A stretch of 64,000 nucleotides of DNA from Cognatundibacterium griseum (GTDB lineage: Bacteria > Pseudomonadota > Gammaproteobacteria > Burkholderiales > Burkholderiaceae_D). The stretch's first letter is position 1, and each line of letters begins with the position of its first letter. The notes under the pieces were generated by a model. The model saw only the letters and a list, made by a program, of their open reading frames with translations, was not told the origin of the DNA and made no database searches. The stretch is taken from positions 62,001-126,000 of the forward strand of contig NZ_JACOGC010000006.1 of assembly GCF_014284195.1 (NCBI RefSeq). Reading direction: 5' to 3'. Shown piece after piece: positions 4,305 through 32,086 of the stretch. A program made the position numbers and the translations under genes.

Positions 4305-4381
4305 AAGATTTTTCCTTTACTATGCAGGCTATGGATATTGGCCAGCCGGTCGGATCAGGGCAAAATTTTCTATCCGTCAAA

Positions 4382-4407
4382 AATAACTGACTCAGTGGTT
4401 AGTTATT
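4382..4407. promoter_or_regulatory. Palindromic operator in the efflux/hpnC intergenic region (TetR-type)
   Basis: A 26-bp dyad has perfect 7-bp outer arms AATAACT and AGTTATT, with inner matched positions (AC ... GT). This is the usual form of a TetR-family repressor site in front of an RND pump operon. It lies 77 bp upstream of the adaptor GTG and 70 bp upstream of the preferred hpnC ATG. No tetR gene is in the window. The palindrome is seen directly; the regulator family is inferred. Confidence 0.6.
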
Positions 4408-4476
4408 ATAGTGAAGCCTTTTATTTTTGCCAATGACTTTTCGGTCATTTATTTTTTCCTGCGTTTTCAATACCTT

Positions 4477-5286
4477 ATGCCGGTCGATCATTACGAGAAT
4501 TTTCCTGTTGCCTCCCTGCTGCTGCCATCCTCGCTGCGTCCTGCGGTAGAGGTAATTTACGCTTTTGCGCGCAGTGCAGACGACATTGCCGATGAAGGCG
4601 ACGCCCTGCCCGGGCAACGGCTGGCGGCGCTTGCCGGATATGAAGCAGAGCTGGATCGCATCGAACGCGGTCAGCGCAGCGATTCGGCCTTGTTTACGCG
4701 ACTGGCGCACATCATCCGCCAGCACAACCTAAATCTGCAATCATTCCGCGATTTGCTGTCGGCATTCCGGCAGGATGTGCAGACCACCCGATACCATAAT
4801 TTCGCACAGCTGCAGGATTATTGCAGCCGTTCCGCCAATCCCGTCGGACGCATCATGCTGGAACTGTATCAGTGCAATACCCCGGACAATATCCGCCGTT
4901 CGGATGCGATCTGCACCGCGCTGCAGCTGATTAATTTCTGGCAGGATGTCGCGATTGACTGGCAAAAACAGCGCGTCTATCTGCCGCAGGAAGATTTACA
5001 GCATTTTGGCGTCAGCGAGCAGCAAATCGACGCGCAACAACTGAACCCGGCATGGCAACAGCTGATGGCATTTCAGACCCGTCGCGCGCACGACCTGATG
5101 CAAAGCGGCGCGGGGCTTGCACTGCATCTGCCGGGACGCATTGGCTGGGAATTGCGGCTCGTGGTTCAGGGTGGTTTGCGGATTATCGAAAAAATCGACC
5201 GTGTTCAGGGCGACGTGTTCCGGCACCGGCCACGGCTCACTGCGGCTGACTGGCTACTGCTCACTGCCCGCGCATTTCGCATGTGA
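4477..5286 (+). CDS. hpnC: Squalene synthase HpnC (hydroxysqualene synthase)
   Basis: This trans-isoprenyl diphosphate synthase-like enzyme acts in the three-step HpnC/HpnD/HpnE route from farnesyl diphosphate to squalene: HpnC converts presqualene diphosphate to hydroxysqualene. I prefer ATG 4477, giving 269 residues (MPVDHYENFPVASLLLP), over an upstream in-frame GTG at 4411. The family starts near this VDHYENFPVA motif, and the longer start would add 22 hydrophobic residues and sit against the operator. The first Asp-rich motif SADDIADEGD is at residues 33-42; the second is around INFWQDVAIDWQKQRVYLP, residues about 155-175. Its partners hpnD and hpnE lie 2.7 kb downstream instead of adjacent. 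Confidence 0.9.
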   Translation: MPVDHYENFPVASLLLPSSLRPAVEVIYAFARSADDIADEGDALPGQRLAALAGYEAELDRIERGQRSDSALFTRLAHIIRQHNLNLQSFRDLLSAFRQDVQTTRYHNFAQLQDYCSRSANPVGRIMLELYQCNTPDNIRRSDAICTALQLINFWQDVAIDWQKQRVYLPQEDLQHFGVSEQQIDAQQLNPAWQQLMAFQTRRAHDLMQSGAGLALHLPGRIGWELRLVVQGGLRIIEKIDRVQGDVFRHRPRLTAADWLLLTARAFRM

Positions 5287-5766
5287 TTCCCCTGCCTTCA
5301 GGCCGGCTGACTTACGGCCCGGGAGAAACCGGCCGGAAAAGACTGCACCTGGATTGCATTGACCAGCCTGCCGTTACCGCAGTTCGTCACGATTCAATCC
5401 CATGAAAACATACTCCCCCTCAGTATATTTTTAAGACCAATAAAATCAAGGAGATCAGAGCATTTTTAAGAAAAACAGGGGGGAGTATACTGATGAATCG
5501 CTGCTATTTTCCTCAATCTCTGGCAGCAAAAAACAGCTCACAGAGAGTCTGTCGGGACAAAGAACAAGCATGCTCTCCTCCCAAAAACCGCTCAAGGCAT
5601 CAGGAACGATGACAAGGCAGAGTCAGAGTATTTGAACTAAATATTTTTTGTCAGCTCTGAGTAAGCATATTCTGTCGTGCGGGACGATTTGAGGGATAAT
5701 ATTGCTTCCTGTAAAGCTGCGCTGATCAGCTTCCGCCAACATTCTCATCCACATCAAGGACTTGTC
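5287..5766. other. Intergenic region, 480 bp, with an inverted C-run motif
   Basis: I see no convincing gene. A GGCCGG/CCGGCC dyad just after hpnC (about 5305-5336) has no T-run. The notable structure is the pair of inverted ATACTCCCCC boxes described separately. The rest is AT-rich non-coding sequence leading to AAGGA at 5756-5760, the ribosome binding site of the small lipoprotein. Confidence 0.5.
5410..5488. repeat. Inverted pair of ATACTCCCCC boxes
   Basis: The box ATACTCCCCC (5410-5419) recurs as its exact reverse complement GGGGGAGTAT (5479-5488). The left copy extends to TACTCCCCCTCAGTA, which has the TACT...AGTA shape around a C/G run. A closely similar 17-bp site occurs at 40748-40764 near lysC. 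The form resembles operators of the CsoR/RcnR/FrmR (DUF156) repressors, but no metal or formaldehyde gene is nearby. It may instead be a small dispersed repeat. Confidence 0.45.
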
Positions 5767-5952
5767 ATGCGAACTTGTATATCCGGCCTGCTTTTCCTAC
5801 TATGCATTTTCTCCCTGAACGGATGTACTGTGCTGGCGGTTGCCGACGCTGCTGTCTCCACGACGGTCAAAGTCGGCAGTGCTGTCGTCGGCACTGCCGT
5901 CGATGTGACCGCAGCAGGCGTCAGGACAGTGACCAGCAGCCCGGATAAGTAA
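5767..5952 (+). CDS. Small outer-membrane-type lipoprotein
   Basis: This 61-residue protein has a signal peptide (MRTCISGLLFLLCIFSLNGC), a lipobox LNGC (Cys20) and a short Ala/Val/Thr-rich mature part. ATG 5767 is chosen because AAGGA lies six bases upstream; an upstream in-frame start at 5677 would put a long hydrophilic stretch before the signal peptide. It resembles the short proteobacterial lipoprotein family with the sequence C-T-V-x-A-V-A-D-A-A-V-S (as I recall it, NF038104). Function unknown. It lies between hpnC and the M24 peptidase gene, 32 bp upstream of the latter and possibly co-transcribed with it. Confidence 0.75.
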   Translation: MRTCISGLLFLLCIFSLNGCTVLAVADAAVSTTVKVGSAVVGTAVDVTAAGVRTVTSSPDK

Positions 5953-5984
5953 GTCATCCACGACCATCAGCGATTGAGTGCATC

Positions 5985-6689
5985 ATGCCCACCGAGCCAG
6001 AAATTACACAACACCGGAAAGTGCAGATTGCAGCCAGAGCCGTTCTGAGCCAGATCACGACCATGATCACGGCCGACGACACGGAAAAAAGTATTGCCGA
6101 TAAAGCCCATCACCTGCTCAAGGCACAGGGTTATCCGGACACCTGGTATTACACCTGCCCGGCGCTGGTGCTGCTGGGTTCACGCAGCTGCGTTTCCATT
6201 TCCGGCAAAGATTACCAGCCCCATGATGAATGCGTCGGCCACTCCAATCTGGTCACGATTGATCTCAGCCCGACGCTGGGACCGTACTGGGGAGACTGTG
6301 CACGTTCATTTCCGATTGAAAATGGCCGGGTGACCAGTAATCCGAAACAATTAGAGTTCCAGAATGGCCTGAATTTTCTTGACCAGATGCATCTGCAAAT
6401 GCAGAAACTGGTGAAACCGCATACCACCTTCGGTCAGCTGTTTGACTGGGCCAATATGCGCATACGGCAAAGCGGCTTCGTCAACCTGGATTACCGCAAC
6501 AATGTCGGTCACAGCATCGCGGCTGATTCTGACCAGCGGCAATTCATTGAGTCAACCAATAGTGCGCCATTAGGAAATGCGCCGTTTTTCAGCTTTGAGC
6601 CATTCGTCCGGCTGAAAGGCGGTAAATGGGGATTCAAACGGGAAGAGATTTTTTATTTCGACGAAACCGGCGTGTTAAGGGAACTCTGA
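5985..6689 (+). CDS. M24-family metallopeptidase (Xaa-Pro aminopeptidase-like)
   Basis: This 234-residue protein has the pita-bread metallopeptidase fold without the N-terminal creatinase-like domain. The five metal ligands are readable: Asp93 (TIDLSP), Asp104 (YWGDCAR), His176 (NVGHSI), Glu205 (FSFEPF) and Glu221 (KREEIF). It is therefore probably an active, soluble dinuclear-metal peptidase; the substrate is unknown. There is no signal peptide. It follows the small lipoprotein gene by 32 bp and ends at a convergent terminator. Confidence 0.85.
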   Translation: MPTEPEITQHRKVQIAARAVLSQITTMITADDTEKSIADKAHHLLKAQGYPDTWYYTCPALVLLGSRSCVSISGKDYQPHDECVGHSNLVTIDLSPTLGPYWGDCARSFPIENGRVTSNPKQLEFQNGLNFLDQMHLQMQKLVKPHTTFGQLFDWANMRIRQSGFVNLDYRNNVGHSIAADSDQRQFIESTNSAPLGNAPFFSFEPFVRLKGGKWGFKREEIFYFDETGVLREL

Positions 6690-21734: not shown

Positions 21735-21762
21735 GCACCAAAACATCACGCCTGCCGCACCA
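21735..21762. promoter_or_regulatory. Possible NtrC enhancer half-sites
   Basis: GCACCA occurs at 21735-21740 and 21757-21762, about 120 and 100 bp upstream of the sigma-54 element. Each equals the left half of the NtrC consensus GCACC(A)-N-TGGTGC, but the right halves are poor. Location fits an enhancer; the match alone is weak. Confidence 0.3.
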
Positions 21763-21855
21763 ATTAAATGCGCAATTCAGGAGCAGCGCTGATGCCATAC
21801 CGTCCGCAGCTTCCCGACTGGTTTCACTCCCCACTGCCAGCCCTCCGGTCTCAGG

Positions 21856-21872
21856 TTGGCACGGTATATGCT
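21856..21872 (+). promoter_or_regulatory. Sigma-54 promoter of the nitrate assimilation operon
   Basis: TTGGCACGGTATATGCT matches the -24/-12 consensus (YTGGCACG-N-TTGCW), with GG at 21858-21859 and GC at 21870-21871 at the required 12-bp interval. The expected transcript start, near 21883, falls just before the first leader hairpin. This implies NtrC-type nitrogen control. Confidence 0.8.
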
Positions 21873-21884
21873 TAATACCAGATA

Positions 21885-21954
21885 ACTGAATCAACGGCGA
21901 TTCAGTCCAATATCAGCAGATCTAACGGTGGGTTTGCACGGACAACGGCGTCCG
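21885..21954 (+). promoter_or_regulatory. ANTAR dual-hexaloop antiterminator in the nitrate operon leader
   Basis: Two hairpins carry the same six-base loop AACGGC. Hairpin 1 (21885-21906) has an 8-bp stem ACTGAATC/GATTCAGT. Hairpin 2 (21939-21954) has a 5-bp stem CGGAC/GTCCG. ANTAR-domain regulators (NasR, NasT, EutV) bind paired hexaloop hairpins with A at position 1 and G at position 4, both present here. The second hairpin shares bases with the terminator 5' arm, so only one can form. An ANTAR protein, presumably encoded elsewhere, would promote read-through when nitrate or nitrite is present. Confidence 0.85.
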
Positions 21955-22000
21955 CCCGGTCAGAGAGAGTTCCTGGCTGTGCGGACGCCTTTTTATTTTT
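21947..22000 (+). terminator. Conditional leader terminator of the nitrate operon
   Basis: Arms GGCGTCCGC (21947-21955) and GCGGACGCC (21981-21989) form a perfect 9-bp stem followed directly by a T-run interrupted by one A. It ends 11 bases before the transporter ATG. The 5' arm begins inside the loop of the second hexaloop hairpin, which makes the two structures mutually exclusive. Confidence 0.88.
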
Positions 22001-22011
22001 ACGGGATAAAA

Positions 22012-23325
22012 ATGATCATGGCCAGCAAAGCAGACACTATCAGACTCTTCAGTTTCGACACGCCGCCAATGCGTGCTTTCCATTTGACCTGGATGGCTTT
22101 TTTCACCTGTTTTTTTGCCTGGTTTGCCTGCGCACCGCTGATGCCGGTCATCAAGGGGGAATTTGGCTTAAGCATGGCACAGATCGCCAATATCAATATT
22201 GCCGCCGTCTCCGTCACGATCCTGGTGCGGCTGATCATCGGCCCCATGTGTGATCGCTTCGGCCCGCGCAAAACCTATACCGGCCTGCTGCTGACCGGTG
22301 CATTGCCGGTGTTCGGTGTGGCATTCACGCAGAGTTACGAAAGCTTTCTGTTCTTCCGCCTGTGCATCGGTGCGATTGGCGCCAGCTTTGTGATCACGCA
22401 GTATCACACCTCGGTCATGTTCGCGCCGAATGTGGTTGGCACCGCCAATGCCGCAGCCGCGGGCTGGGGCAATACCGGCGGTGGTGCTGCCCAGGCACTG
22501 ATGCCTTTGCTGTTATCGGCTCTGCTGATGCTGGGAGTCAGTGAATCACTGGGCTGGCGGCTGGCGATGATGGTGCCCGGCGTGCTGATGCTGTTGATGG
22601 CTGTCATCTACTGGCGTTTCACACAGGACTGCCCGGAAGGTAATTATGCAGAATTACGCGCCCAGGGTATCGCTGTCGAAGGCGGAAAAAAAGGCGGCTG
22701 GGCCAGCTTCTGTGCGGCCAGTCTCAACTATCGCGTCTGGCTGTTGTTCATCACCTACGGAGCATGTTTTGGGGTGGAAATTTTCATCCATAACATTGCT
22801 GCGGTGTATTACGTCGATCATTTCGGTCTGTCGCTGAAAAGCGCGGGCATGGCAGCAGCCAGCTTTGGTCTGCTGGCGCTGTTTGCACGGGCACTGGGTG
22901 GCTGGCTGTCTGACAAGGCGGCCTTGCACGGCGGCTTAAATACCCGTGCCAGCCTGCTGTTTGTGATGATGCTGGGCGAAGGGCTGGGCCTGCTGTGGTT
23001 TGCCCATGCCAACAGCGTGACGCTGGCGGTCTGCGCAATGCTGACCTTCGGCCTGTTCACCCACATGGCCTGCGGTGCGACTTACGCACTGGTGCCTTTC
23101 ATCGACCGCAAAGCACTCGGCGGTGTGGCAGGCATCATCGGCGCGGGCGGCAATGCCGGTGCGGTGCTGGCCGGATTTCTGATGAAAAGCCTGGGCGATG
23201 TGCAGCAGACACTCGGCCTGTTAGGGATTGCTGTGACGGTTTCAGCACTGTGCGCGATTGCTGTCCGCTTCAGCGCAGCGCATCAGGCCAGCGAACAAAT
23301 CAGCATTCATAACATCACCGCTTAA
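22012..23325 (+). CDS. Nitrate/nitrite MFS transporter (NarK/NasA type)
   Basis: This 437-residue transporter of the nitrate-nitrite porter family has both nitrate signatures: AAAGWGNTGGGAAQ (about 150-163) and GVAGIIGAGGNAGAVLAGF (about 375-393). ATG 22012 follows the leader terminator; a longer in-frame ORF from 21928 would run through the regulatory hairpins and is rejected. It is first gene of the operon transporter-nirB-nirD-flavoprotein-nasA and brings nitrate into the cytoplasm for assimilation. Confidence 0.92.
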   Translation: MIMASKADTIRLFSFDTPPMRAFHLTWMAFFTCFFAWFACAPLMPVIKGEFGLSMAQIANINIAAVSVTILVRLIIGPMCDRFGPRKTYTGLLLTGALPVFGVAFTQSYESFLFFRLCIGAIGASFVITQYHTSVMFAPNVVGTANAAAAGWGNTGGGAAQALMPLLLSALLMLGVSESLGWRLAMMVPGVLMLLMAVIYWRFTQDCPEGNYAELRAQGIAVEGGKKGGWASFCAASLNYRVWLLFITYGACFGVEIFIHNIAAVYYVDHFGLSLKSAGMAAASFGLLALFARALGGWLSDKAALHGGLNTRASLLFVMMLGEGLGLLWFAHANSVTLAVCAMLTFGLFTHMACGATYALVPFIDRKALGGVAGIIGAGGNAGAVLAGFLMKSLGDVQQTLGLLGIAVTVSALCAIAVRFSAAHQASEQISIHNITA

Positions 23326-23338
23326 GGAATCGCAGATC

Positions 23339-25906
23339 ATGAAAATTATCGTTATCGGTCATGGCATGGTCGGCCATAAATTTCTGGAATGCCTGGCGGA
23401 CAGTCCGGCAGACAATCTGGAAGTCACCGTCTTGTGCGAAGAACCGCGTCCGGCTTACGACCGCGTCCATTTGTCGGAATTTTTTTCCGGTAAATCGGCG
23501 CAGGATTTATCGCTGGTAGCGCCCGGCTTTTTTGAGCGCAGCCACTTCCGGCTGAAACTCAATGCCAAGGCGCAGTCTGTTGATACCGCAGCAAAAACCG
23601 TCAGCTATCACCTCGACGGCACGACAGAAACGCTGGCGTACGACAAGCTGGTGATCGCAACCGGCTCTTATCCGTTTGTACCGACACTGGCCGGCAACCA
23701 GCGCAAGGACTGTTTCGTTTACCGGACGATTGAAGACCTGGAAGCCATGCAGGAATGCGGCAAGCGTTCCCGCAGCGGTGTGGTGATCGGCGGCGGCCTG
23801 CTCGGTCTGGAATGCGCCAAAGCACTGCGTGACATGCAGCTGGAAACCCACGTCGTTGAATTTGCGCCGCGCCTGATGGCAGTGCAGGTCGACGAGAGCG
23901 GCGGCCGCATATTGCGCCAGAAAATCGAGGAACTCGGCGTTACCGCGCATACACAGAAAAACACACTCGAAATCGTCGATGGCAAGACCGGCACGCATCG
24001 TATGAATTTTGACGATGGCAGCCATCTTGACGCCGACATGATCGTGTTCTCGGCGGGGATACGGCCACGCGACGAGCTGGCGCGCGACAGCGGGCTCAAA
24101 GTCGGCGAACGCGGCGGCATCGTGATTGATAACCGTTGCCGCAGTTCCGATCCGGATATTTATGCGATCGGTGAATGCGCGCTGTGGAACGGTAAAATCT
24201 ACGGTCTGGTCGCACCGGGCTATGACATGGCACGTACCGCAGCACAGGATATCCTGGCGCAGCGCGATACCGGCAACAGCATCGTGGTTCCTGAATTCAC
24301 GGGCGCCGACATGAGCACCAAGCTCAAGCTGATGGGCGTCGATGTTGCCAGCATCGGCGATCCGCACGGCAAGGTGGCAGGCAGCCGCTCTTATCAGTTC
24401 ACCGATGAGCGCAAACAGATCTATAAAAAAATCGTGGTCTCTGAATGCGGCAAATACCTGCTGGGCGGCGTGATGGTAGGCGATGCCAGTGAATACGGCA
24501 CCCTGCTGCAGATGATGTTAAACCGTATCGAATTACCGGAAGCGCCGGAATTCCTGATTCTGCCGCAGGCGGACGGTAAAGCAAAACCGGGTATCGGCGT
24601 GGATGCCTTGCCGGACACGGCGCAAATCTGCTCCTGCAACAATGTCTCCAAGGCGCACCTGTGCGCTGCCGTCTGCGATGGCGCCACCGATATTGCAGCC
24701 CTGAAAAGCTGCACCAAAGCCGGCACTGCCTGCGGCGGCTGTGTGCCGCTGGTGACGCAGATCATGAAAGCCGAAATGAAAAAGCAAGGCATGGCCGTAA
24801 ATAACCATGTCTGCGAGCATTTTCCCTATTCCCGGCAAGAGCTTTACCATCTGGTGCGGGTCGGTCAGATCAAAACCTTTGATGCCTTGCTGGCGCAACA
24901 CGGTAAAGGTCTGGGCTGCGATGTCTGCAAACCGCTGGCGGCGAGTATTCTGGCATCGTGCTGGAATGAATTTGTGCTCAAGAAAGAACACGCCAGCCTG
25001 CAGGACACCAACGACTATTATCTCGGCAACATTCAGAGAGACGGCACCTATTCGGTGGTGCCGCGCATGCCCGGCGGTGAAGTCAGCGCAGAGGGGCTGA
25101 TCGCCATTGGTCAGGTAGCGAAGAAATATGGCCTGTACACCAAGATCACCGGCGGCCAGCGGGTTGACCTGTTCGGTGCGCGGGTCGAACAATTGCCGCT
25201 GATCTGGGAAGAGCTGATCGCCGCCGGTTTTGAATCCGGTCACGCTTACGGCAAATCGCTGCGCACCGTGAAATCCTGTGTCGGCTCGACCTGGTGCCGC
25301 TACGGCGTGGATGACAGCATGGGGCTCGCCATCGCGCTGGAAAACCGCTACAAAGGGCTGCGTTCTCCGCACAAAATCAAATTTGCGGTCTCTGGCTGCA
25401 CCCGTGAATGCGCAGAAGCACAAAGCAAGGACGTCGGCGTCATCGCGACCGAAAAAGGTTGGAACCTGTATGTCTGCGGCAATGGCGGCATGAAACCGCG
25501 CCACGCCGAATTACTCGCTGCCGATCTCGACCGGACAACACTGATCCGCTATATCGACCGTTTCCTGATGTTCTATGTCCGCACCGCCGACCGCCTGCAG
25601 CGCACCAGCGTCTGGCGCGACAATCTGGAAGGCGGGCTCGATTACCTGAAACAGGTGATCGTTGATGACAAGCTGGTATTGGCGGCAGAACTGGAAACGG
25701 AAATGCAGCACGTGGTTGACACTTACGAGTGCGAGTGGAAAAAAGCCGTGAACGACAGCGAAACACGTCAGCGTTTCCGCCATTTCATCAACAGCGATCA
25801 GGCTGACCAGAATGTCGTGTTCATGGAAGAACGCGGACAGATCCGGCCCGCCACCGTGCAGGAAAGAAAGCGGATTGCGATTGCTGCCGTGGCAGCGGAC
25901 GCCTGA
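23339..25906 (+). CDS. nirB: Assimilatory nitrite reductase large subunit NirB
   Basis: This 855-residue cytoplasmic NADH-dependent enzyme reduces nitrite to ammonium. In order: an FAD/NAD pyridine-nucleotide oxidoreductase domain (IIVIGHGMVGHKF; GVVIGGGLLGLECAKAL near 145), a BFD-like [2Fe-2S] domain (ICSCNNVSKAHLC near 430, then CTKAGTACGGC), ferredoxin-like half domains, and siroheme/4Fe-4S Cys in CVGSTWC (about 646-652) and CTREC (about 685-689). ATG 23339 is used; the longer frame overlaps the transporter gene. Confidence 0.95.
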   Translation: MKIIVIGHGMVGHKFLECLADSPADNLEVTVLCEEPRPAYDRVHLSEFFSGKSAQDLSLVAPGFFERSHFRLKLNAKAQSVDTAAKTVSYHLDGTTETLAYDKLVIATGSYPFVPTLAGNQRKDCFVYRTIEDLEAMQECGKRSRSGVVIGGGLLGLECAKALRDMQLETHVVEFAPRLMAVQVDESGGRILRQKIEELGVTAHTQKNTLEIVDGKTGTHRMNFDDGSHLDADMIVFSAGIRPRDELARDSGLKVGERGGIVIDNRCRSSDPDIYAIGECALWNGKIYGLVAPGYDMARTAAQDILAQRDTGNSIVVPEFTGADMSTKLKLMGVDVASIGDPHGKVAGSRSYQFTDERKQIYKKIVVSECGKYLLGGVMVGDASEYGTLLQMMLNRIELPEAPEFLILPQADGKAKPGIGVDALPDTAQICSCNNVSKAHLCAAVCDGATDIAALKSCTKAGTACGGCVPLVTQIMKAEMKKQGMAVNNHVCEHFPYSRQELYHLVRVGQIKTFDALLAQHGKGLGCDVCKPLAASILASCWNEFVLKKEHASLQDTNDYYLGNIQRDGTYSVVPRMPGGEVSAEGLIAIGQVAKKYGLYTKITGGQRVDLFGARVEQLPLIWEELIAAGFESGHAYGKSLRTVKSCVGSTWCRYGVDDSMGLAIALENRYKGLRSPHKIKFAVSGCTRECAEAQSKDVGVIATEKGWNLYVCGNGGMKPRHAELLAADLDRTTLIRYIDRFLMFYVRTADRLQRTSVWRDNLEGGLDYLKQVIVDDKLVLAAELETEMQHVVDTYECEWKKAVNDSETRQRFRHFINSDQADQNVVFMEERGQIRPATVQERKRIAIAAVAADA

Positions 25907-25968: not shown

Positions 25969-26316
25969 ATGCATAGCGATCGTCAACTGAACCAATGGAT
26001 ACCGGTCTGTAATCTGAGCGATATCCTGCCCAATACCGGTGTCTGCGCCCTCATCAACGGCGAACAGATTGCGATCTTTCACATACACGACGGAGAAGAC
26101 CGGGTATTTGCAATTCACAACTACGACCCGAATTCGGAAGCTGCCGTACTCTCACGCGGACTGGTCGGCAGTCTGGGTGAGCGCATCGTGGTCGCCTCGC
26201 CGATTTACAAGCATCATTTTGACTTGCAAACCGGCGAATGCCTGGAAGCGCCGGAACATTCCGTGCATGCCTATCCGGTGCATATCAACAACCATCAGGT
26301 CTGGGTCGGCATATGA
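25969..26316 (+). CDS. nirD: Nitrite reductase small subunit NirD
   Basis: This Rieske-fold small subunit partners NirB. The usual Rieske Cys-x-His pairs are not present (the first position reads IHNYDPNSEA), so no [2Fe-2S] cluster is expected, as in the E. coli protein. ATG 25969 (MHSDRQLNQWIPVCNL) gives 115 residues; an in-frame ATG at 25909 would add 20 residues unlike the family. Its TGA overlaps the next ATG by 4 bp. Confidence 0.9.
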   Translation: MHSDRQLNQWIPVCNLSDILPNTGVCALINGEQIAIFHIHDGEDRVFAIHNYDPNSEAAVLSRGLVGSLGERIVVASPIYKHHFDLQTGECLEAPEHSVHAYPVHINNHQVWVGI

Positions 26317-27551
26317 CAGCCCTACAAACCGGCAAAGCAAAGCCCGCTCTGGTGGTGATCGGCAACGGCATGGCGGGTATGCGCACGGTCGAAGAACTGC
26401 AAAAACTGGCGCCCGACCTGTACGACATCACCGTTTTTGGCGCTGAGCCGCATGGCAATTACAACCGCATCTTATTGTCGCCGCTACTGGCTGGCGATAA
26501 AAAAATGGACGATATCATGCTGCATACGCGCGAGTGGTACCGCCAGCACCGGATCACGCTGCACACCAGCGACCCCGTGGTGGCGATCGACCGCCACCGG
26601 CGCACGGTGCGATCACGGGCAGGTATTGAAGTCGCCTATGATCGCCTGCTGCTGGCGACCGGCTCCACGCCGTTCATCATTCCTGTACCCGGCCATCAGT
26701 TGCCGGGCGTGATTGCCTTTCGTGATATTCAGGACGTCGAAACCATGCTGCAGGCGGCGCGCAGCCACCGTCATGCGGTGGTGATCGGCGGTGGCCTGCT
26801 GGGGCTGGAAGCGGCAAACGGCCTGCTGCGCCAGGGAATGGAGGTCACCGTAGTGCATGTCTGCGGCAGCCTGATGGAAAGACAACTGGATGCCGCCGCG
26901 GCACTGCTGCTGAAAAAAGCACTGGAACAAAAAGGCATGCGTTTCCTGTTGGACGCCAATACCAGCGAGATCGTCGGCAACGAGCGTGTCACGGCGGTGC
27001 GCTTTCAGGACGGCAGTGAAATTCCGGCGGACCTGGTTGTCATGACGGCAGGCGTGCGTCCGAACATCGCACTGGCCAAACAAGCCGGCTTGCATTGCGA
27101 ACGGGCGATCGTGGTGGACGATACGCTGCAAACCTATGATCCGCGCATTTATGCAGTCGGCGAATGCGTGCAGCACCGGATGGCGACCTTTGGCCTGGTC
27201 GCGCCGATCTGGGATCAGGCACGCGTTTGCGGCGCACATCTGGCCGGTGCCGGTCACCGCCGTTACGTGCAGCAGGCGACGGCAACCAAACTCAAGGTCA
27301 CCGGCGTCGATCTCTACTCAGCGGGAAATTTCATCGGCGGCGAAGGCAGCGAAGACCTGGTGATGCGCGACCCGCGGCGCGGCATTTATAAACGGCTGGT
27401 GCTGAAAGATAACCAGATTATCGGCGCCGTGTTGTACGGCGACGTGAAAGATGGTCCGTGGTATTTCGGACTGATCCAGAATCAGACCGATATTTCAGCC
27501 CTGCGCAATCAACTATTGTTTGGACAGGCGCTCTGCGGTGAAGCAGCCTGA
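26313..27551 (+). CDS. FAD/NAD-dependent reductase, electron donor of nitrate reductase
   Basis: This 412-residue flavoprotein has two dinucleotide folds: FAD at ALVVIGNGMAGMRTVEEL (about residue 12) and NAD(P)H at AVVIGGGLLGLEAANGLL (about 148). A third FAD contact is YAVGECVQHR. It resembles the N-terminal third of NirB and the NasC/NasB-type electron-transfer subunits. Placed between nirD and the nitrate reductase, it most likely passes NADH electrons to the latter. It lacks an iron-sulfur domain of its own; the partner supplies one. Confidence 0.85.
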   Translation: MTALQTGKAKPALVVIGNGMAGMRTVEELQKLAPDLYDITVFGAEPHGNYNRILLSPLLAGDKKMDDIMLHTREWYRQHRITLHTSDPVVAIDRHRRTVRSRAGIEVAYDRLLLATGSTPFIIPVPGHQLPGVIAFRDIQDVETMLQAARSHRHAVVIGGGLLGLEAANGLLRQGMEVTVVHVCGSLMERQLDAAAALLLKKALEQKGMRFLLDANTSEIVGNERVTAVRFQDGSEIPADLVVMTAGVRPNIALAKQAGLHCERAIVVDDTLQTYDPRIYAVGECVQHRMATFGLVAPIWDQARVCGAHLAGAGHRRYVQQATATKLKVTGVDLYSAGNFIGGEGSEDLVMRDPRRGIYKRLVLKDNQIIGAVLYGDVKDGPWYFGLIQNQTDISALRNQLLFGQALCGEAA

Positions 27552-27564
27552 TCAGGAACCGAAG

Positions 27565-30306
27565 ATGAACATTCCCATCATCCCAGAAACTGCCAACAGC
27601 GTGCGTACCACTTGCCCTTATTGCGGTGTTGGCTGCGGCGTGCGTGCCACCGTGCATGCCAACGGCACCACAGATATCAGCGGCGACACACAGCATCCGG
27701 CAAACGCCGGACGCCTGTGCGTCAAAGGCTCTGCGCTGGATGAAACCATCGGGCGGGATGGTCGCCTGCTGTATCCGCACATGCGGGATAGCATCACCGG
27801 CAATCTGCGGCGCACCAGCTGGGATCAGGCACTTGATACGGTTGCGCAGGGTTTCAGCGACATCATCAAACGCCACGGCCCGGATGCAGTGGCATTTTAT
27901 GTATCCGGCCAGCTGCTGACGGAAGACTATTACATCGCCAATAAACTGATGAAAGGCTACATCGGCAGCGCGAATATCGATACCAATTCGCGGCTTTGCA
28001 TGTCGTCTGCAGTCGCCGGACATAAACGCGCCTTCGGTGCGGATCTGGTGCCGGTATGCTACGAAGACCTGGAGCTTGCCGATCTGGTGGTGCTGACCGG
28101 CTCCAACACCGCGTGGTGCCATCCTGTGCTGTTCCAGCGCATCGCCAAAATCAGGGAAACCCGGCCTGCCATGAAGCTGGTGGTGATCGACCCGCGCCGC
28201 ACGGCGACCTGCGAGCTGGCTGATCTGCATCTGCCGGTCAGGGCAGGCACTGACGTCTGGCTGTTTAACGGACTGCTGCATTATCTGTCGCAACATGGCA
28301 AAACGGATGCGGCATTTGTCGCCGCGCATACAAACGGGCTGGACGAGGCACTGGCCACTGCCGCCGCCAGCAGTGCCGATCCGCTCACAGTCGCCAAAAT
28401 CTGCAAAGTCGATGTGCGTGACCTGCTGGCATTTTACGAACTGTTCGCCAGCACAGAAAAAGTCGTGAGTGCCTTTTCACAAGGCGTCAATCAATCGTCT
28501 GCCGGTACCGATAAGGTCAACAGCATTATCAATTGCCATCTCCTCAGCGGTCGCATTGGCCGTCCCGGCATGGGACCGTTTTCCATCACCGGCCAGCCGA
28601 ATGCGATGGGTGGCCGGGAAGTCGGCGGCCTCGCCAATATGCTGGCAGCACACATGGATCTCGATAATCCGGCGCATCGCCAGACCGTGCAGACATTCTG
28701 GAATGCACCGCGCATCGCCGACAAGCCAGGTCTCAAAGCAGTTGATCTGTTCCATGCGATCGAGCAAGGCAAAGTCAAAGCGGTCTGGATCATGGCCACC
28801 AATCCGGTAGTCAGCCTGCCGGATGCCGATCAGGTGCAGCGTGCGCTCGCCCAGTGCGAACTGGTGGTGGTCTCCGACATCACCGAAAAAACAGACACCA
28901 ACGCTTGCGCCCATGTGCTGCTGCCCGCGCTCGGCTGGGGTGAGAAAGACGGCACGGTCACCAATTCCGAACGCCGCATTTCACGGCAGCGCCCTTTCCT
29001 TCCTCCTCCCGGAGAAGCGCGTGCCGACTGGCAGATTTTGTGCGATGTCGCGCAACGTATGGGATTTGACGGCTTCCGCTATCAGAGTGTGCACGAGATA
29101 TTCGACGAACATGCCAGACTGACAGCCCGTGACAATACAGCGACAAACTCCGGCAAACAGCCGCGCCTGCTGAATCTGAGCGGGCTGTGCGGCATGGGCA
29201 AAGCCCGGTTCGACGCCATGCAGCCTGTGCAGTGGCCAGTCATGCCCGCTGCGCATGACGAACCCCGGGGCACGCAACGGCTGTTCACCGATCATCATTT
29301 TGCCCATCCCGATGGCAGGGCACGCTTCATCCCGACAGCGCCACGCACACCGAAAAACATGCCGGATCAGGACTATCCGCTGAGTCTCAATACTGGTCGC
29401 GTACGCGATCAGTGGCACACCATGACCCGCAGCGGAAAGTCGCCAAAGCTGAACAACCACATCTCCGAATCGTTCATCGACATGCACCCGCAAGATGCGC
29501 TGCTGTGCGGTGTGCGCGAAGGCGGCCTGGCACGGGTTTCCTCGCCGTGGGGCGCCATGGTGGCACGAGTGCAGCATGGCGGCGGCATTCCGCGCGGCAG
29601 CATCTTTGTGCCGATTCACTGGAACAATCAGTCCGCATCGGACGCCCGTATCGGCGCAGTCGTGAATCCGGTTGTCGATCCGGTTTCCGGCGAACCAGAA
29701 TTCAAACATACCCCGGTGCGGGTGGAAGAATTTCCGGTTTCCTGGCATGGTTTCATCCTGAGCCGCCACGATCTTGCACTTGGTGAAATCGCGCACTGGA
29801 GCCGGATTCAGGGACGTGCACTGACGCGTTACGAACTCGCTGGCCGCAATCAGATCGGCCATCACGGGCAATGGGCGCGCCAGCTGTTCGGCATTCACGA
29901 CCCCGACGCCGACTGGCTCGAATACGAAGACAAAACTGCCGGTATGTATCGTGCCGTCCACATACGCGACGACCGCATCGAGAGCTGCCTGTTTCTCTCT
30001 CCCCGCCCTGACCTGCCCTCGCGCACCTGGCTCGCCAGCCTGTTTGCCAAAGACCTGCTGGAAGAAGCCGACCGCATCGGCCTGCTGATCGGCCAGCCAA
30101 TAGAAAAAGGCATCGACACCGGCCCCACGATCTGCTCCTGCTTCGGCGTCGGCCGCAACACCATCTGCGACATCATCCGCCAGCAAAACATCACCTCCGT
30201 CACCCAGGTCACAAGCTGTCTGAAAGCCGGCGGCAACTGCGGCTCATGCGTCCCTGAAATTAAAAAACTGCTGGAACTTACGATGGCAGAAGCGACAGAG
30301 AGCTGA
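27565..30306 (+). CDS. nasA: Assimilatory nitrate reductase catalytic subunit
   Basis: This 913-residue cytoplasmic molybdopterin enzyme converts nitrate to nitrite. The N-terminal 4Fe-4S motif CPYCGVGCGV (residue about 17) with RLCVKG is followed by molybdenum-bis-MGD domains and a molydopterin-dinucleotide-binding domain (LNTGRVRDQWHTMTRSGK). At the end is a BFD-like [2Fe-2S] domain, ICSCFGVGRNTIC ... CLKAGGNCGSC (about 857-893). There is no Tat signal, consistent with an assimilatory enzyme. It is last gene of the operon; I see no clear terminator after it. Confidence 0.95.
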   Translation: MNIPIIPETANSVRTTCPYCGVGCGVRATVHANGTTDISGDTQHPANAGRLCVKGSALDETIGRDGRLLYPHMRDSITGNLRRTSWDQALDTVAQGFSDIIKRHGPDAVAFYVSGQLLTEDYYIANKLMKGYIGSANIDTNSRLCMSSAVAGHKRAFGADLVPVCYEDLELADLVVLTGSNTAWCHPVLFQRIAKIRETRPAMKLVVIDPRRTATCELADLHLPVRAGTDVWLFNGLLHYLSQHGKTDAAFVAAHTNGLDEALATAAASSADPLTVAKICKVDVRDLLAFYELFASTEKVVSAFSQGVNQSSAGTDKVNSIINCHLLSGRIGRPGMGPFSITGQPNAMGGREVGGLANMLAAHMDLDNPAHRQTVQTFWNAPRIADKPGLKAVDLFHAIEQGKVKAVWIMATNPVVSLPDADQVQRALAQCELVVVSDITEKTDTNACAHVLLPALGWGEKDGTVTNSERRISRQRPFLPPPGEARADWQILCDVAQRMGFDGFRYQSVHEIFDEHARLTARDNTATNSGKQPRLLNLSGLCGMGKARFDAMQPVQWPVMPAAHDEPRGTQRLFTDHHFAHPDGRARFIPTAPRTPKNMPDQDYPLSLNTGRVRDQWHTMTRSGKSPKLNNHISESFIDMHPQDALLCGVREGGLARVSSPWGAMVARVQHGGGIPRGSIFVPIHWNNQSASDARIGAVVNPVVDPVSGEPEFKHTPVRVEEFPVSWHGFILSRHDLALGEIAHWSRIQGRALTRYELAGRNQIGHHGQWARQLFGIHDPDADWLEYEDKTAGMYRAVHIRDDRIESCLFLSPRPDLPSRTWLASLFAKDLLEEADRIGLLIGQPIEKGIDTGPTICSCFGVGRNTICDIIRQQNITSVTQVTSCLKAGGNCGSCVPEIKKLLELTMAEATES

Positions 30307-30820: not shown

Positions 30821-32086
30821 ATGGCACGTGCCACCAAAAAACTTTCGGCATTAAGCGTTAAAAACGAAATCCGACCCGGATACCACAGCGACGGGGACGG
30901 ACTATATTTACAGGTTTCCGCCAATGGCGCGAAGTCATGGATATTCCGGTTCCGGTATCAGGGCAAAGGGCGGGAAATGGGCATAGGCGGCGTCAGCGCA
31001 GTGACGCTGGCGGAGGCGCGGGATAAAGCGCAACACTACCGCAAACTGCTGAGCGAAGGGATAGACCCGATTGCAGACCGGCAAGCGCAGCGGGGCGCGT
31101 ACAAGGTGAACCTGTCGCACACATTCAGCACCGTATCCGGCCAATACTTTGCTTCTAAAAGTATTGAATTTAAAAATGAGAAACATGCTGCGCAATGGAT
31201 AACCAGCCTGCGAACTTACGCATTCCCGATCATCGGGGACAAGCCAGTCAGCGCAGTGACGCTGGCGGATGTGTGCGACGTGCTGAGGCCGATCTGGACA
31301 GTAAAGAACGAAACCGCCAGCAGACTGCGGGGGCGCATTGAAGCGGTGCTAGGGTATGCCAAAACACTCGGACTGCGTAGCGGCGATAACCCGGCAGTCT
31401 GGGGTGACAATCTGGATAAGGTCTTTGCAGCCCCTGCGAAAGTGCAGAGTTCCAGCAGCCGTAACATGCCAGCCCTGCCCTATTCAGAGGTAGCCGCATT
31501 CCTGCGCGACCTGCGCCAGCAGACAGGGATAGCCGCAGTAGCCCTGCAATTCGCCATCCTTACCGCAGCCCGTAGCGGTGAAATATTCGGTGCGACGTGG
31601 AGAGAGTTTGACCTGGACAATAAATTATGGACGATACCAGCCGGACGGATGAAGGCAGGCAGGGAACACCGCGTACCATTGTCCGACAGCGCCATGCGGA
31701 TATTGAATGACATGCTGGCGCTGCGCACCAGTGACGCGGATTTTGTGTTTCATAACCGCAGGGAACGCGGCGAAACGAAAATGTTAAGCAACATGGCTAT
31801 GACCGCTGTATGCCGCCGTATGGGGGTGCCAGTCGTTCCGCACGGCTTCCGTTCGACATTCAGGGATTGGGTAGAGGAATGCACAGACACACCGCACACA
31901 GTTGCTGAAATGGCGCTGGCGCATACCATCGGCAATAAAGTAGAAGCTGCTTACCGGCGCGGTGACTTGCTGCTGAAGCGGCAGATACTGATGCAGGCGT
32001 GGGCGGATTACTGCGAGAAAGCGCCAGCAGCCGTGGTAGCCATCGCCAGAGCGACAGAGGGACAGGCAGCAGGCGCGGCAGCATGA
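30821..32086 (+). CDS. int: Tyrosine recombinase integrase, P4 family
   Basis: This 421-residue site-specific recombinase has an N-terminal DUF4102 arm-binding domain (residues 1-90, YHSDGDGLYLQVSANGAKSW), a core-binding domain (about 105-190) and a catalytic domain. The readable active-site residues are Arg in TAARSGEI, His-x-x-Arg in PHGFRSTF, His in ALAHTIGN and the Tyr nucleophile in EAAYRRGDLL. It lies 178 bp inside attL. Two TGTGGGTA repeats (30763-30770 and 30775-30782) upstream are likely arm or operator sites. Its stop overlaps the next ATG by 4 bp. Confidence 0.95.
   Translation: MARATKKLSALSVKNEIRPGYHSDGDGLYLQVSANGAKSWIFRFRYQGKGREMGIGGVSAVTLAEARDKAQHYRKLLSEGIDPIADRQAQRGAYKVNLSHTFSTVSGQYFASKSIEFKNEKHAAQWITSLRTYAFPIIGDKPVSAVTLADVCDVLRPIWTVKNETASRLRGRIEAVLGYAKTLGLRSGDNPAVWGDNLDKVFAAPAKVQSSSSRNMPALPYSEVAAFLRDLRQQTGIAAVALQFAILTAARSGEIFGATWREFDLDNKLWTIPAGRMKAGREHRVPLSDSAMRILNDMLALRTSDADFVFHNRRERGETKMLSNMAMTAVCRRMGVPVVPHGFRSTFRDWVEECTDTPHTVAEMALAHTIGNKVEAAYRRGDLLLKRQILMQAWADYCEKAPAAVVAIARATEGQAAGAAA

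Follow-up and report, generated by a model that had tools for sequence, protein, structure and literature searches.

A probable NasT-type antitermination leader with three ANTAR-type hexaloops precedes the narK-nirBD-nasA operon of Cognatundibacterium griseum

The eut, ami and Klebsiella nasF leaders, which are the targets of the ANTAR proteins EutV, AmiR and NasR, share a common architecture. Their hairpins carry hexaloops with A at position 1 and G at position 4 (A1 and G4), and the last hairpin overlaps a terminator. The distance between the hairpins has been defined for EutV. In the eutP reference, the linker is 5–12 nt long and the loops lie around 24 nt apart (A29/A53). Shortening the linker to 3 nt or lengthening it to 14 nt spoils the antitermination, with the 14-nt linker drastically reducing the induction, and 20 additional nucleotides abolish it. 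The loop is contacted by Tyr164 and Met172 of EutV, and NasR selects C:G as the loop-closing pair. In Paracoccus denitrificans, NasT is released by nitrate/nitrite and binds the nasA leader, the hairpins of which are needed for growth on nitrate. The two-layer control by NtrC/sigma-54 and NasT has already been described for the Pseudomonas nirBD leader NalA (PMC12830290; for this control, Romeo 2012 as cited therein). The first-pass annotation of the locus considered here referred to Klebsiella nas, the regulator of which is NasR, as the known case, but the NasT-controlled NalA leader is closer.

The analyzed window is a stretch of 64,000 nucleotides of the C. griseum genome, and the features described below lie on its + strand unless otherwise noted. 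The leader was scanned for hairpins with A1/G4 hexaloops, and three were found, where an ANTAR leader needs at least two. The distal hairpin, P1 (21885..21906), has 8 bp and the loop AACGGC at 21893-98. The middle, proximal hairpin, P2 (21916..21937), also has 8 bp, some of them GU pairs; its arms (21916-23/21930-37) and its loop at 21924-29 read GCAGAUCU-AACGGU-GGGUUUGC. The antiterminator hairpin, P3 (21939..21954), consists of 5 bp and the loop AACGGC at 21944-49. The first-pass annotation described a two-hairpin leader. Its P1 and P3, both with AACGGC loops, exist at 21885-21906 and 21939-21954, but P2 was overlooked between them and the total is three. When the stretch from the -12 element to P3 was shuffled with its dinucleotides preserved, 0/20,000 shuffles gave two such hairpins upstream of P3, and 0.6% gave one or more. 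The whole leader RNA folds better than 200/200 dinucleotide shuffles (z -4.8).

The spacing of the hairpins bears on which of them would work together. The loops of P2 and P3 are 20 nt apart, those of P1 and P2 31 nt, and those of P1 and P3 51 nt; the linker between the full stems is 1 nt for P2 and P3 and 9 nt for P1 and P2. P1 and P3, the two hairpins of the earlier annotation, are thus further apart than the textbook pair, and it is P2 and P3 that come near the textbook distance between loops.

The intrinsic terminator (21947..21989) is built on a 9-bp outer stem, in which 21947-55 pairs with 21981-89, and is followed by the U-run TTTTTATTTTT (21990..22000). Positions 21947-21954 are common to P3 and to the terminator, and the two structures are mutually exclusive, which confirms the claim that a hairpin shares its bases with a 9-bp terminator just before the transporter ATG (22012). 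In the folding of the growing transcript, P1 is formed first, followed by P2 and then P3, and the terminator displaces P3 once the bases up to about 21985-21989 have emerged. The free energy of the full leader is calculated as -51.2 kcal/mol, compared with -37.2 kcal/mol when P3 is forced. Such a difference of 14 kcal/mol in favor of the terminated form suggests that the termination would be the default state and that P3 would need help to persist.

The leader is preceded by the sigma-54 promoter sequence TGGCACGGTATATGC (21857..21871), with GG at 21858-59 (-24), N10, and GC at 21870-71 (-12). These positions place the predicted +1 at about 21883, two bases before P1 at 21885, in agreement with the start proposed in the annotation. 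The NGGCA-N7-TGC motif is present in all 79 readable narK leaders, including that of C. griseum (two more loci began too near the gene), and its distance to P1 is near-constant wherever P1 exists. Besides this conserved GG-N10-GC at -24/-12, both the rpoN and ntrC genes are found in the C. griseum genome. The GG/GC sequence, together with the ntrC, rpoN and ANTAR genes of the genome, supports the reading of an ANTAR antitermination leader transcribed from a sigma-54/NtrC-type promoter. An NtrC-like dyad, GCACCAATTAAATGC (21757..21771, no strand assigned), lies approximately 100 nt upstream of the -24 element. It is a single, imperfect dyad, with one mismatch to GCACY-N5-RGTGC. A dyad with at most one mismatch occurs within 220 nt upstream in 47/79 leaders versus 10% of mononucleotide shuffles, a weak count given the crude shuffle control and the relatedness of the sequences. 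In Massilia (L051 and, in part, L049), a 25-bp perfect inverted repeat, GCACGCTTCATTGCAGTGCGCCATG, is located upstream of the promoter, around 252 nt before narK, and possibly represents enhancer sites.

A matching narK is present in 5/40 genomes of the genus; the distribution of the operon is therefore patchy, and it may be mobile. Among named relatives, Undibacterium oligocarboniphilum is the closest, with a transporter that is 98% identical. In C. griseum, the first gene encodes a narK-type nitrate/nitrite MFS transporter (22012..23325; TIGR00886, 292 bits, just under the curated cut-off of 311.7). It is followed by nirB, the nitrite reductase large subunit (23339..25906; TIGR02374, 1110 bits; start codon assigned by eye), nirD, the small subunit (25969..26316; TIGR02378, 114 bits), and a NirB-like FAD/NAD reductase (26313..27551), which matches the N-terminal half of TIGR02374 with 452 bits. 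The last gene (27565..30306) encodes a molybdopterin oxidoreductase, which was assigned with the help of its operon position as the assimilatory nitrate reductase catalytic subunit (nasA/nasC-like); its product scores 465 bits with NF047855, under the cut-off of that model. A phage-type integrase is located directly after the operon, at 30821-32086 (no strand assigned).

The three hairpins differ in their distribution among the narK leaders. P3 is present in 79/79 readable leaders and P2 in 62/79, counting C. griseum as well as L028 (named only Burkholderiaceae) and L040 (named only Betaproteobacteria). Every readable narK leader named Oxalobacteraceae has P2. The leaders without it belong to Paraburkholderia, Burkholderia, Cupriavidus, Ralstonia and one Burkholderiaceae bin, and none is named Oxalobacteraceae. 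Among 55 distinct leaders, changes on both sides are found in 8/17 pairs, five of which belong to P2, a level of covariation matched by 0/500 shuffles. In the true structure 95% are paired, versus 26-51% when the structure is slid by one to three columns. In P1, compensatory changes occur in 3/5 core pairs, with 99.6% of cells paired, and in P2, in 5/8 pairs, with 89.8% paired. Within the P2 loop of the same leaders, A1, A2 and G4 are invariant while positions 3, 5 and 6 vary. The pattern used for calling P2 itself demanded A1, A2 and G4; as every Oxalobacteraceae leader had P2, this invariance is not only the effect of the filter.

Such conservation weighs on the view that P2 is a mere structural spacer, which brings P1 near P3 while its ANTAR-like loop is left uncontacted. 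A strong hairpin with other loops at the P2 site of Cupriavidus and Ralstonia would suit a spacer, as would the closing pair of P2; half of the leaders have U:G here in place of the C:G that NasR selects, which counts against a contact of P2 with the protein. A spacer, however, needs no A1, A2 and G4, and these are retained while the stem and the other loop positions change. In addition, the AANG loop recurs at the P2 position of leaders with only the proximal hairpin, including the narK leaders of Pseudomonas. The spacer role is thus considered unlikely.

The variation of P3 concerns mainly its outer base, as the inner pairs hardly vary. The combination of bases in the P3 5′ arm, the shared strand and the terminator 3′ arm is G/C/G in 144 leaders, C/G/C in 7 (Pseudomonas-type) and A/U/A in 7, mostly nrt leaders of Undibacterium. 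Another 20 leaders have other combinations, and most of these retain the P3 pair, not the terminator pair, at the outer position. On the shared strand, the outer base thus changes in step with each of the two bases that it can pair with, which is what a switch requires. The covariation in relatives that the annotation had put forward as a check on the leader is present, both in the 8/17 pairs and in this shared strand.

In a survey of 300 Burkholderiales genomes, a strict leader was defined by the promoter, P3 and the terminator, which gave 55 leaders in 51 genomes. The AANG hairpins upstream of P3 are both distal and proximal in 20 of them, only distal in 20, only proximal in 11 and absent in 4; shuffles lead one to expect 0.005 strict leaders with two or more upstream hairpins. 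The triple form is spread over eight sampled families. The survey excluded 63 of the 136 GGACAANGGCGTCC sites in the 300 genomes, for which no terminator arm was recognizable. Some of these resemble genuine leaders whose terminators are unusual (e.g., L113), and the counts are therefore lower bounds. One match of the covariance model, in G269, was rejected; it has neither a promoter nor a terminator and looks like a chance hit in coding sequence.

The leaders with fewer loops show which hairpins can be dispensed with. Cupriavidus and Ralstonia keep the strong middle stem with a loop that is not of the ANTAR type, and Paraburkholderia leaders have no middle stem; the third loop is thus dispensable in leaders of this kind. 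The distal side is lost elsewhere: Duganella CF458 (L078) lacks P1 and keeps P2 and P3, and the Undibacterium nrt leaders L288 and L293-L295 keep P2 and P3 with no distal ANTAR loop. In L293, L294 and L295, a distal stem of the GTACC/GGTAC type is retained and the hexaloop is lost, next to intact P2 and P3. In Pseudomonas-type narK leaders (genus deduced from the Rfam family), the proximal hairpin and P3 are the only ones present, with the loops mostly 20-26 nt apart. As some lineages have naturally lost the distal loop and others the proximal one, each of the two upstream loops may be able to do the work.

The same distribution can be set against a second alternative, in which NasT uses only P1 and P3 and P2 is incidental. 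Paraburkholderia, Cupriavidus and Ralstonia do have P1 and P3 as their only ANTAR loops, and 20/55 strict leaders have the distal hairpin alone. This reading does not explain the compensatory changes and the invariant loop bases of P2 in every Oxalobacteraceae leader, nor the 11/55 strict leaders, and those of Undibacterium and Duganella named above, which have P2 and P3 without a distal ANTAR loop. The 51 nt between P1 and P3 are also at odds with the intolerance of EutV to longer linkers. Together, these observations make the use of P1 and P3 alone improbable. In Burkholderiaceae leaders with P1 and P3 alone, the loops are 55-67 nt apart; if these leaders are functional, NasT would be more tolerant than EutV, or it would load and move instead of bridging the two hairpins.

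The C. griseum genome has exactly one ANTAR gene, which is nasT-like and scores 80 bits over its 54 positions, so the nasT/nasR-type gene sought elsewhere in the genome by the first-pass annotation exists. Its product aligns with EutV, AmiR and NasR and keeps the Tyr and Met that match, as read from the alignment, EutV Tyr164 and Met172. The gene is followed by that of an NMT1_2 protein related to NrtA, in the arrangement of a NasS-NasT pair, and no second homologue of this kind was found in the genome. The sequence of the NrtA/NasS-type partner does not separate a sensor from a transport binding protein. No long nrtB-like reading frame is present downstream of this gene, and its product may be a surviving NasS-type sensor after the loss of the transporter. 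The nasT pair and the nitrate operon lie on different contigs. Apart from the narK leader itself, the covariance model finds no other leader in the C. griseum genome at E below 0.4. Inspection by eye revealed a second, decayed leader at L082:5144-5245 (G000:C12), between nasT (4329-5000) and the NrtA-like gene (5308-6606), the product of which has HH where the Tat signal of relatives has the twin-arginine (RR). The sigma-54 element and P3 (CAGAC-AAAGGU-GUCUG) of this leader are intact; its upstream hairpins are degraded, and it lacks a terminator. In other Undibacterium (L285-L295), the leader at this place precedes nrtA and in most cases has three hairpins as well as a terminator. A decayed copy is also present in G590, the nearest relative. 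Across the Burkholderiales survey, an ANTAR gene is present in 51/51 genomes with a strict leader versus 97/249 of the others, and in 62/64 genomes with a match to the covariance model (Fisher approximately 1e-18 or lower). At 47/58 places, an ANTAR gene is situated no more than 3.5 kb upstream, on the same strand.

An Rfam search at a low threshold gave two meaningful matches for the C. griseum leader, both under the gathering scores: narK RNA (RF03032; 27.7 bits, gathering 43.2) and P11 (RF00625; 27.4 bits, gathering 70). The narK RNA model, as aligned, leaves the third hairpin as an insertion. Both families align with the leader, and the 5′ end of the P11 model aligns with the sigma-54 promoter itself. 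This suggests that narK RNA and P11 are one kind of leader split over two families. Judging by position, NalA and P11 are probably the same RNA, or at least the same type of locus. A P. aeruginosa RNA called P11 also appears in papers on learned avoidance in C. elegans. The filing of P11 as a small RNA gene, together with its weak match to the whole stretch and the short RNA that the terminator would set free, leads to a third alternative: a protein-independent attenuator, or a terminated leader with its main role in trans, as a small RNA, like the catalogued Pseudomonas P11. We give it very little credence, as the co-occurrence and close linkage of ANTAR genes, the conserved loops and the covarying alternative pairing fit antitermination, and the Pseudomonas NalA leader is described as NasT-controlled (PMC12830290).

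The preferred explanation, which is held with high confidence, is that a NasT-type ANTAR antitermination leader controls narK-nirBD-nasA. Within it, P2 and P3 would form the textbook pair, and P1 would serve as an additional site of recruitment. From the features described above, we infer the contacts of NasT, the order of its loading and the response to nitrate as follows. In nitrogen limitation, phosphorylated NtrC and sigma-54 would begin the transcript. Without nitrate/nitrite, the NasS-like partner would hold NasT, the terminator would replace P3, and transcription would yield no more than a leader RNA of about 115 nt. With nitrate/nitrite, the freed NasT would bind the AANG hexaloops on the nascent RNA, hold P3 and block the terminator. 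As EutV needs close hairpins, the 20 nt between P2 and P3, compared with the 51 nt between P1 and P3, point to P2 and P3 as the core pair and to P1 as an additional loading site. P1, the first hairpin to leave the polymerase, would recruit a NasT dimer, which may then move or re-bind towards P3. Several recruitment loops in one leader would suit the published successive-binding model well. A wider proposal, on which we are evenly divided, is that the three-loop ANTAR leader is a widespread, undescribed variant, in which NasT loads onto the two upstream loops, one after the other or on either of them, and then captures P3.

The dual-hairpin motif, the loop rules and the nitrate leaders have already been described, and what would be new is the triple-loop variant together with the natural versions that have lost a single element. 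A literature search of limited coverage found no three-hairpin ANTAR leader, which does not establish priority. These forms bear on how ANTAR dimers use two hairpins. Together with the three-loop leaders, sister leaders without the distal loop, without the proximal loop, or without the loop but not the stem constitute a natural mutant series that separates the binding models, and three-loop leaders, if the proposal is true, allow a ready test of simultaneous versus successive binding of the dimer.

In comparison with the known systems, the C. griseum leader has three loops, not the two of eut, ami and nasF, and its NasT would work with a separate sensor, unlike the one-component NasR or the phosphorylated EutV. 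Two hairpins (HI and HII) were tested in the Paracoccus denitrificans nasA leader, whereas C. griseum has three. The narK RNA family resembles the C. griseum leader in the AACGGC hairpin, the following GACAA-type hairpin which overlaps the terminator, and the sigma-54-like promoter; its gammaproteobacterial members differ in having two hairpins and no distal one. The P11 matches in Pseudomonas are alike in the promoter, the AANG hairpin and the GGACAAAGGCGUCC that overlaps the terminator. They have a distal AACG hairpin and P3, and most also have a middle hairpin with an A1/G4 loop, which differs from P2 in its G:C closing pair and in the absence of A2. NalA shares the sigma-54/NtrC promoter and the probable control by NasT, but it precedes nirBD, while the leader of C. 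griseum precedes narK.
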